Positions 39,845 through 62,286 of a DNA stretch of 64,000 bases are shown here, piece by piece. This DNA comes from Stenotrophomonas sp. ZAC14D1_NAIMI4_1 (GTDB lineage Bacteria; Pseudomonadota; Gammaproteobacteria; Xanthomonadales; Xanthomonadaceae). Under the pieces are notes generated by a model that saw only the letters and a program-made list of their open reading frames with translations, ran no database searches and was not told the origin of the DNA. The DNA lies in the NCBI RefSeq assembly GCF_003086775.1, contig NZ_CP026001.1:1-64000 (forward strand), given 5' to 3'. Positions within the stretch are counted from its first letter, which is position 1. Every line of letters starts with the position of its first letter. The translations under genes were made by a program, and so were the position numbers.

Positions 39845-39860
39845 TGACCATCGGTGTCAT
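39845..39860. promoter_or_regulatory. Proposed LacI-type operator, site 1
   Basis: TGACCATCGGTGTCAT lies in the divergent kdgK / receptor gap, 76 bases upstream of kdgK. It shares 15 of 16 bases with site 2 and the CGGTGTCA core with three further sites in the locus. Confidence 0.6.
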
Positions 39861-39991
39861 CGCGAAACCGACCGGCCGTGCACACAGCCTATCAAACTGT
39901 CGGAAGCATTGTCCCGCAAGCGTCTTGGAGACATTACAGGTCTGTTGCGGTGCAAGATGCCGCAGAGGGAACGTGCTGCTACCGTCGGCTC

Positions 39992-40007
39992 TGACCAGCG
40001 GTGTCAT
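39992..40007. promoter_or_regulatory. Proposed LacI-type operator, site 2
   Basis: TGACCAGCGGTGTCAT is 48 bases before the receptor ATG at 40055. It repeats site 1, 147 bases away, with a single change. Confidence 0.65.
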
Positions 40008-40054
40008 TCCGCTGAAACACTCGCGAGACCAGACCTTTGGGAGAGGGGAAAGGC

Positions 40055-61092: not shown

Positions 61093-61130
61093 GCGCGCGC
61101 TGGAATCCCCAGACTTACCGGGTTCACTAC

Positions 61131-62189
61131 ATGTCAGTGCGCAACAAGAACGATGCCGCCACGCCGGCATTGGCGAAGGGCAAGGCCGCCACGATCAACG
61201 ACATCGCGCGACTGTCGGGAGTATCGAAGAAAACGGTTTCAAGGATCATCAACAACTCGCCCCTGGTGCGCAAGGACACGCGCGACAAGGTCGAGGCGCT
61301 GATGCGCGAGGTCGGCTACACGCCTGACCCGCTGGCCCGTGGCCTGGCCTTCCGCCGCTCCTTCCTGATCGGCATGGTCTACGACAACCCGACCGCCCAG
61401 TACATCGTGGACATGCAGTACGGCGCGCTGGACGCGCTGCGCGGCTCCAGCTTCGAACTGGTGGTGCACCCCTGCGACAGCCGCAGCCCGGGCTACATCG
61501 ACGGCGTGCGCCGCTTCGTGCAGCAGCAGAAGCTGCACGGGGTGATCCTGGTGCCGCGTGCCTCCGAAGACCAGGCGCTGGCCGACATGCTGGACGAGAT
61601 CGGCTGCCGCTTCACCCGCGTGGCGGCGCTGCCGCTGGATGACAGCTCGCAGATGGTGGTCACCCACGATCGCGACGGTGCGGCCGAAGCGGCCGATTAC
61701 CTGCTCTCGCTCGGCCACCGCGACATCGCCCTGGTGACCGGCCCCAGCGCCTACCGTTCCGCGCACGAGCGCACGGCCGGCTTCATCGACGCGCTGTCCC
61801 AGCGTGGCATCGAGCTGCCCAAGGACCGCATCATCGAGGCCGGCTACACCTTCGAATCGGGCGTGGCCGCCGCCGAGAAGCTGCTGCTGGGCAAGCGGCG
61901 GCCGACCGCCATCTTCACCGGCAACGATGAAATGGCCGCCGGCATCTACAAGGTAGCGCTGCGTGCGGGCATCAACATCCCGCGCCAGCTGTCCATCGTC
62001 GGCTACGACGACAGCCCGCTGGCCTCGCGCCTGTGGCCGTCGCTGACCTCGGTGCGCCGCCACACCCGCGACACCGGCCGCACCGCCGCAGCGATGCTGA
62101 TCCAGCCCGACAGCCAGGCCGCGCTGCAGATCGCCAGCGTGCGCCCGCACCTGATCGTGCGCGACTCCTGCCAGCCGCCAGAGGATTGA
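61131..62189 (+). CDS. LacI-family transcriptional regulator
   Basis: A 352-residue regulator with an N-terminal LacI helix-turn-helix (TINDIARLSGVSKKTVSRII, about 20-42) and a periplasmic-binding-protein-like effector domain. Hinge residues and VGYDDSPLASRLWPSLTSV are typical. ATG 61131 is taken because it places the HTH near the N-terminus, though the ribosome binding site is weak. It is the last gene of the TRAP/lyase run, 38 bases after the GH43 gene. It probably controls the pectin locus through the CGGTGTCA-core operators; the inducer would be an intermediate such as KDG. Confidence 0.93.
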   Translation: MSVRNKNDAATPALAKGKAATINDIARLSGVSKKTVSRIINNSPLVRKDTRDKVEALMREVGYTPDPLARGLAFRRSFLIGMVYDNPTAQYIVDMQYGALDALRGSSFELVVHPCDSRSPGYIDGVRRFVQQQKLHGVILVPRASEDQALADMLDEIGCRFTRVAALPLDDSSQMVVTHDRDGAAEAADYLLSLGHRDIALVTGPSAYRSAHERTAGFIDALSQRGIELPKDRIIEAGYTFESGVAAAEKLLLGKRRPTAIFTGNDEMAAGIYKVALRAGINIPRQLSIVGYDDSPLASRLWPSLTSVRRHTRDTGRTAAAMLIQPDSQAALQIASVRPHLIVRDSCQPPED

Positions 62190-62270
62190 GGCCTTCGGCC
62201 TCAATCCGGTAGGTCGGTGGGTCACGACCGTTGGTCGTGACTCTCCAGCCCCGCTATCGTGCGACGCAAA

Positions 62271-62286
62271 ATGACACCGGTTACCA
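62271..62286. promoter_or_regulatory. Proposed LacI-type operator, site 5
   Basis: ATGACACCGGTTACCA lies between lacI and kduI, 73 bases before the kduI ATG. Its reverse reads TGGTAACCGGTGTCAT, matching the core of sites 1-4. Confidence 0.65.

Follow-up and report, generated by a model that had tools for sequence, protein, structure and literature searches.

A pectin-use locus of Stenotrophomonas with putative LacI-type operators, one of them inside a receptor gene

In Escherichia coli, LacI-family repressors bind an operator at the promoter and another one inside the gene, OE and OI in gal and O2 in lac, and repress by forming a loop. In Dickeya and Pectobacterium, KdgR, a member of the IclR family, controls kduI, kduD, kdgK and the pectinases. 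The parts of two papers on Xanthomonas covered here describe XylR as a LacI-type repressor of the xylan CUT loci (PMC13282271), and a putative LacI/GalR-family repressor in the sux locus (PMC1790865). The same part of the latter paper presents XCC0120 of X. campestris, a receptor induced by polygalacturonate whose gene precedes those for pectin methylesterase and pectate lyase, in a locus that is seemingly unique to Xcc (PMC1790865). LacI-family groups named KdgR, ExuR, UxaR and UxuR regulate the use of uronates or of 2-keto-3-deoxygluconate (KDG), an example in the passages covered being the KdgR of Bacteroides (PMC4052901); neither Xanthomonas nor Stenotrophomonas is mentioned in the main text of that study. 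In a passage of a 2012 paper the mechanism of pectinase induction was called completely unclear (PMC3551730). A description of the operator and regulator reported below was not found in the titles and abstracts listed by literature searches or in the passages covered of PMC4052901, PMC5343134, PMC3551730, PMC1790865 and PMC13282271; RegPrecise and the supplements were outside this scope, and an entry may exist there.

Genes and Operator Sites of the Locus

The window, i.e., the whole stretch of 64,000 bp that was analysed, corresponds to positions 1–64000 of a single-contig genome of 4,702,461 bases. A TonB-dependent receptor, degrading enzymes, an inner-membrane transporter and a regulator, the components of a CUT locus, were found together in it (Table 1). 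In the left part, kdgK-eda on the minus strand is followed by receptor 1, receptor 2 and a gene for a 1275-aa protein on the plus strand. In the right part, three esterase genes on the minus strand precede the hydratase-like gene, the TRAP P, Q and M genes, the pectate lyase, GH43, lacI, kduI, kduD and esterase-cupin genes, all on the plus strand. From what is established for these gene families, their products form a coherent route that leads from pectin to KDPG. The kinase is probably a 2-keto-3-deoxygluconate kinase; its best NCBIfam match was an aldolase/kinase fusion model, followed by KDG kinases, all below the cut-off. Judged by position alone, the gene of the 1275-aa protein, 3' of receptor 2, would be a member of the regulon. 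The hydratase-like gene likely starts at the TTG after AGGGAG, the ATG at 54542 belonging to the operator, and the true start of the GH43 gene is probably downstream of 59459. A further TonB-dependent receptor gene was seen beyond eda (34415–37102, minus strand); no exact CGGTGTCA was found in front of it in an 8-mer search of the window, and it could be transcribed by read-through from kdgK-eda.

Table 1. Positions of the genes, putative operators and additional elements in the window.
Feature	Positions	Strand	Remarks
eda (KDPG aldolase)	38125..38763	-	Pfam PF01081 1.9e-71; TIGR01182 above cut-off
kdgK-like sugar kinase, divergent from receptor 1	38750..39769	-	PF00294 2.7e-37
Operator Oa, between kdgK and receptor 1	39845..39860	-	TGACCATCGGTGTCAT; 13/16 columns invariant (30 orthologs)
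Second element, near -35 position of putative receptor 1 promoter	39943..39963	+	TGTTGCGGTGCAAGATGCCGC
Putative extended -10, receptor 1	39977..39985	+	TGCTACCGT; own reading of conserved TGyTAnnnT
Operator Ob, just 3' of putative -10 of receptor 1	39992..40007	-	TGACCAGCGGTGTCAT; 15/16 columns invariant (30 orthologs)
Receptor 1, TonB-dependent receptor	40055..42835	+	PF00593, PF07715; 30 orthologs retrieved whole
Operator Oc, codons 9-13 of receptor 1	40079..40093	+	AAGACACCGGTTACC; missed by the original prediction
Second element, receptor 2 promoter	42903..42923	+	49-base offset to operator, as at receptor 1
Putative extended -10, receptor 2	42937..42945	+	TGTTACGTT; own reading
Receptor 2 operator	42952..42966	-	TGACCCGCGGTGTCA; perfect TGACACCGNNGGTCA
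Receptor 2, TonB-dependent receptor	43061..46237	+	TIGR01782 4e-214, above cut-off
1275-aa protein with laminin-G-like domain	46313..50140	+	PF13385, sole recognised domain
Three esterase genes: GDSL, carboxylesterase, PaeX-like acetylesterase	50939..54499	-	
Operator of divergent esterase / hydratase-TRAP promoters	54542..54558	+	ATGACACCGGTTTACCA on +
Hydratase-like gene	54617..55444	+	Weak hydratase match, below cut-off
TRAP transporter P, Q, M genes	55362..58314	+	
Pectate lyase	58287..59459	+	TIGR02474 8.6e-72, above cut-off
GH43 glycosidase	59164..61092	+	PF04616 2.7e-93
LacI-family regulator	61131..62189	+	PF00356 1.4e-18, PF13377 1.1e-34, both above cut-off
TGCNNNGCR element adjoining kduI operator	62260..62268	+	60/76 orthologous loci; shuffled mean 0.5
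kduI-kduD operator	62271..62286	+	ATGACACCGGTTACCA on +
kduI	62359..63207	+	NF002091 above cut-off
kduD, then esterase/cupin gene, 3' of kduI, running past window end		+	kduD: TIGR01832 above cut-off

The five sites listed in the original prediction were all read directly at their positions. They are intergenic, as it had claimed of every site, a claim that does not extend to Oc, the sixth site, which lies in coding DNA of receptor 1. The 16-base consensus that had been proposed for all of them, with related flanks, fitted the three receptor sites only: one half-site is common to all sites, the other half is loose, and the left flanks are common to the three receptor sites and not to the others. 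The consensus was replaced by a fixed half-site, TGACACC|G, and a degenerate second half with several forms, TGACCANC, TGGTAACC, TGGTAAACC and similar ones. A CpG was central in the five intergenic sites and in Oc, in an imperfect dyad; dyad operators with a central CpG, located near the target promoters, are typical of the LacI/GalR family.

The rarity of the sites depended on the pattern searched. The bare 8-mer CGGTGTCA occurred six times in the window against 2.76 expected, a number matched by 7 of 100 shuffles and therefore not significant. Its sixth copy (10443–10450) was located outside the pectin locus and had no partner half-site. With up to two mismatches, TGACCNNCGGTGTCA gave seven matches in the window for 2.13 expected (1 of 100 shuffles), three of them perfect and the remaining four elsewhere. 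Genome-wide, the receptor-type pattern TGACACCGNNGGTCA matched perfectly three times, each time in one of the two receptor promoters, and with two mismatches it was swamped (256 matches versus 145 reversed controls). ATGACACCGNTNNNC had five matches, four of which were in this locus, and none in the reversed controls. The stricter kduI/TRAP pattern ATGACACCGGTKNNC matched perfectly at two places, 54542 and 62271; one mismatch raised this to 22 matches, five of them in the window, against two reversed controls. The genome search that had been suggested along with the motif thus found the exact full patterns nearly confined to this pectin locus. A match at 657578 was located within the open frames of another locus (L087) and was dropped. 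An operator-like sequence, GCCACCGGTTACCA, was also visible on the minus strand at 63325–63342, in coding DNA within the start of kduD, where it may be due to chance, from conserved Thr-Gly-Gly codons.

The LacI-Family Protein, the Operator Forms in Relatives and the Promoters

The protein encoded at 61131 possesses the LacI helix-turn-helix (HTH) and the periplasmic-binding-protein-like ligand domain of the LacI/GalR family. Its best solved relatives were CcpA, RbsR, PurR and LacI, and its top matches among named genomes were from Stenotrophomonas. With a cut-off of at least 64% identity, chosen in the analysis, orthologs were present in 59 of 149 genomes of the family and absent from 90, and the LacI DNA-binding domain was nearly invariant. 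The coding-region form AAGACACCGGTTACC was found in 46 of the 149 genomes (one reversed-control match), all 46 possessing the ortholog, and in none of the 90 genomes devoid of it. The exact TGACACCGGTTTACCA was found in 33 of 149 (reversed control 0), 32 of which possessed the ortholog. The exception, G177, is 76% complete; the motif was present there and LacI was not found. The Fisher value for the co-occurrence, 6e-27, ignores kinship and shared location, and part of the association is expected from joint loss, as LacI and the motif are in one gene cluster. Neither exact form was found in 10 of the 59 genomes with an ortholog. Relatives also had the operators at distant loci. In genome G077 they were located 53 kb from lacI, in a group of genes comprising kdgK, both receptors and a pectinesterase; in G009 they were at a second receptor gene followed by a pectinesterase gene, on a contig different from that of receptor 1, a distance relative to receptor 1 and not to lacI. 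Two genomes of the same genus as the window, G006 and G039 (loci L118 and L119), had a LacI of 73–74% identity with a nearly unchanged HTH, located near eda, and no motif; kduI and TRAP matches were not found in the retrieved stretch. This LacI could be a regulator without its regulon, or one with another target. In G088, LacI was kept beside kdgK in the absence of the motif.

The loci of the LacI orthologs were examined for the best 80 of 156. The kduI operator TGACACCGGT was present between lacI and kduI in 76 of these 80 and was missed in L034 (2500 bases scanned), L039 (120 bases), L052 (993) and L069 (509). The ten-letter identity among the 76 sites is by construction, since those letters selected them. 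Beyond these letters, the AA before them (75 and 76 of 76) and a C at position 13 (76 of 76) were kept and the surroundings varied. The right half took the forms GGTTACC, GGTTTCC, GGTTTACC, GGTTAACC, GGTGTCC and GGTGGTCA. In L075–L077 the site was ATGACACCGGTGGTCA, near the receptor form; with both main forms represented among the orthologous sites of kduI, the two would be one operator. The hydratase operator TGACACCGG was found near the gene start in all 73 orthologous loci holding the gene. Among the 27 LacI genomes lacking the exact TGACACCGGTTTACCA, regions were retrieved for 18, and a site before the hydratase gene was seen in 15 of these, the three in which it was not found being G006, G039 and G088.

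The putative extended -10, TGNTANNNT, started 15 bases before the operator at both receptors, and a promoter scan of the receptor 1 region found none. A second element, TGYTGCGGYGCAAGATGCCGC, was common to both receptors at an identical distance from the operator. Its core GCGGNGCAAGATGCCGC, with at most one mismatch, had only two copies in the genome (two reversed-control matches), and all 30 orthologs had GCAAGATGCC at this distance, with no more than one mismatch. This element is a candidate activator site, perhaps related to the TGCNNNGCR element beside the kduI operator, and a second regulator acting through the extra elements is possible. The scan placed a minus-strand promoter, TCGACA-18-TATGGT (54584–54555), across the operator at 54542, and did the same in L047. 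On the plus strand, in our own reading, 71 of 73 loci had a TTGNNN hexamer that preceded TATAC by 17 or 18 bases; the hexamer was TTGCCA with 17 bases in 39 loci and TTGCAC with 18 in the window. The operator would then form the spacer between the -35 and the -10 of the TRAP promoter.

Very probably, the motif marks pectin-use genes jointly controlled by a LacI-type regulator in Stenotrophomonas and its relatives. The original prediction had named the gene at 61131 as the natural candidate, a proposal strengthened by the co-occurrence across the family, and the likely role of its product as repressor of the pectin regulon belongs to the same best explanation. The sites could instead be the operators of another regulator, such as the 41%-identical LacI paralog encoded at 3.92 Mb in this genome or a factor outside the LacI family, with the local LacI controlling something else. 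The variable spacing of the half-sites is in keeping with this, and variation of the second half-site in both sequence and spacing is unusual for a symmetric dimer and counts against our reading; regulators can also outlive their targets, G006 and G039 keeping the LacI in the absence of the motif. Such a substitution is nevertheless unlikely, given that every genome with the coding-region form has this very ortholog, that paralogs of about 40% identity occur in motif-free genomes as well, that a CpG-centred dyad suits a LacI-family protein and that lacI sits between two target operons. It is highly improbable that the motif is a part of the core promoter, or the site of another activator, conserved by promoter constraint. 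The conserved block at 54542 does continue into TATACA and is overlapped by the minus-strand promoter, and the second element lies close to where the -35 of the receptors would be. Against this, the position of the motif relative to the putative promoters varies, it is once in coding DNA, and its exact copies are nearly limited to this locus.

The Putative Operator inside Receptor 1 and Its Distance to the Promoter Operator

The operator Oc within the receptor gene, encoding Lys-Thr-Pro-Val-Thr, is new relative to the original prediction. Protein similarity was used to pick orthologs of receptor 1, the 30 places with the highest scores among 61 genomes being taken, and 13 further regions were added. 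Oa, Ob and Oc were all present in the 30 genus orthologs and in 11 of 11 further orthologs, and two of two paralogs (L146 and L147) had Oc and one upstream CGGTGTCA site. Oc was letter-identical in the 41 genus orthologs examined, all 15 columns being invariant in the first 30, compared to 31 of the 131 columns that separate Oa from Ob in these 30 sequences. Oa might be an operator dedicated to kdgK: both Oa and the divergent kdgK were found in 30 of 30 genus loci, but this second upstream site was not found in 21 of 26 family loci with a divergent kdgK. Across the family, Oc was kept in 16 of 54 genera. The coding form was found at 52 places, of which 30 were retrieved and some of the other 22 were read within other loci. 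A CGGTGTC site was located 86–136 bp upstream in all 30 retrieved places, and the frame was open to the end of the locus in 29, with a stop after 93 codons in L171. In receptor 2 of the window the coding-region operator was absent. Eleven receptor-2-like genes beside receptor 1 showed the full upstream pattern in nine cases, a partial one in L106 and the coding form only in L107.

It is quite unlikely that the coding stretch AAGACACCGGTTACC is no operator and owes its conservation to the demands of translation initiation, of mRNA structure or of the signal peptide. Its codons are rare in the mature parts of these genes (ACA 0.5% of Thr codons, GTT 2.5% of Val codons). The estimate was repeated with codons 2–16 of 935 open frames because gene starts are richer in such codons, and there ACA reached 9.8% and GTT 12.2%, an enrichment that favours a translational constraint, as does the conservation of the adjacent AAA and TCT codons. 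With this 5'-end usage the string of seven codons still had a probability of about 9e-5 per gene. The codons directly 3' of Oc vary, GACACCGGTTACC recurs letter for letter in the window's intergenic operator of kduI, and the receptor 2 genes of some species have the identical 15 bases among differing flanking codons. An upstream operator-like site, finally, accompanied the coding form in all 30 retrieved family places and in 13 of 13 further regions.

In the window, the centre of Oc is 87 bp downstream of that of Ob, and Oa is 147 bp upstream of Ob. Ob and Oc thus have the gal-type arrangement, with operators upstream of and inside the first gene. A search for Ob–Oc pairs with a distance of 77–138 bp, split into two spacing ranges, gave matches in 96 and 95 of the 395 family genomes (reversed control 0), a total of 210 pairs in 175 distinct genomes, the coding position being checked for the retrieved places only. 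The distances peaked near 87, 95, 115, 125 and 136 bp. For 34 genus clusters the periodicity at 10.5 bp was R = 0.43 (p = 0.002 versus a uniform null) and with one value per genus (19 values) R = 0.56 (p = 0.0015), kinship being removed in neither case, so that shared descent weakens the test. Of the 210 pairs, 174 deviated from a whole number of turns by no more than a quarter turn and 36 by more, several of the latter at 99–103 bp. The Oa–Ob distance in the 41 genus orthologs was 147 bp in 29, 146 bp in 10, 157 bp in one and 136 bp in one. Spacings near whole helical turns, with exceptions, suggest a repression loop of the gal type. It is conceivable, if somewhat short of probable, that the dual-coded signal-peptide codons are an operator looping to the promoter operator, with loop lengths changed mainly by whole helical turns.

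Proposed Repression and Comparison with Known Systems

We propose that without inducer a dimer of the LacI-family protein covers core promoter elements. At the TRAP promoter the bound operator would fill the spacer between the -35 and the -10, and at the receptors it would sit at the transcription start. The repressor would be released by products of pectin breakdown, KDG or DKI being the most likely ones, and a joint rise of the kinase, the receptors, the esterases, TRAP uptake, the lyase and KduI/KduD would follow. At receptor 1, the auxiliary operators Oc and Oa probably permit repression by looping or by a roadblock, a proposal made by analogy with OE/OI of gal and O2 of lac. The link across the locus that had been anticipated is borne out at the sequence level by one operator family at kdgK-eda, both receptors, the esterase and hydratase-TRAP operons and kduI-kduD. 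With this model, pectin use in a family of plant-associated bacteria gains a candidate regulator, and the operator spacings that occur in nature, one of the operators being held in place by coding DNA, would offer a test bed for DNA looping by LacI-family proteins.

The regulon of KdgR in Dickeya and Pectobacterium contains the same pathway genes but its regulator belongs to the IclR family, whereas the candidate here is of the LacI family and no enterobacterial type of KdgR. The LacI-family KdgR, ExuR, UxaR and UxuR groups resemble it as regulators of uronate or KDG use, a likeness by description in the passages covered and not by orthology or operator. XCC0120 is likewise comparable by description, not by operator, as a receptor beside pectin-degrading genes in the part of the source covered. 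Compared with gal and lac of E. coli, the putative internal operator is encoded here by the signal peptide of a receptor, and the loop is a proposed one. The XylR and sux CUT loci of Xanthomonas, as far as described in those passages, share with this locus the TonB-dependent receptors, the degrading enzymes, the inner-membrane transporter and the LacI-type regulator; they are likened by description and not by operators, and the differences here are the pectin substrate, the TRAP transporter and the auxiliary operator in the receptor gene. These comparisons support a view of the system as a CUT locus putatively under LacI-type control, in which the auxiliary operators resemble those of gal.
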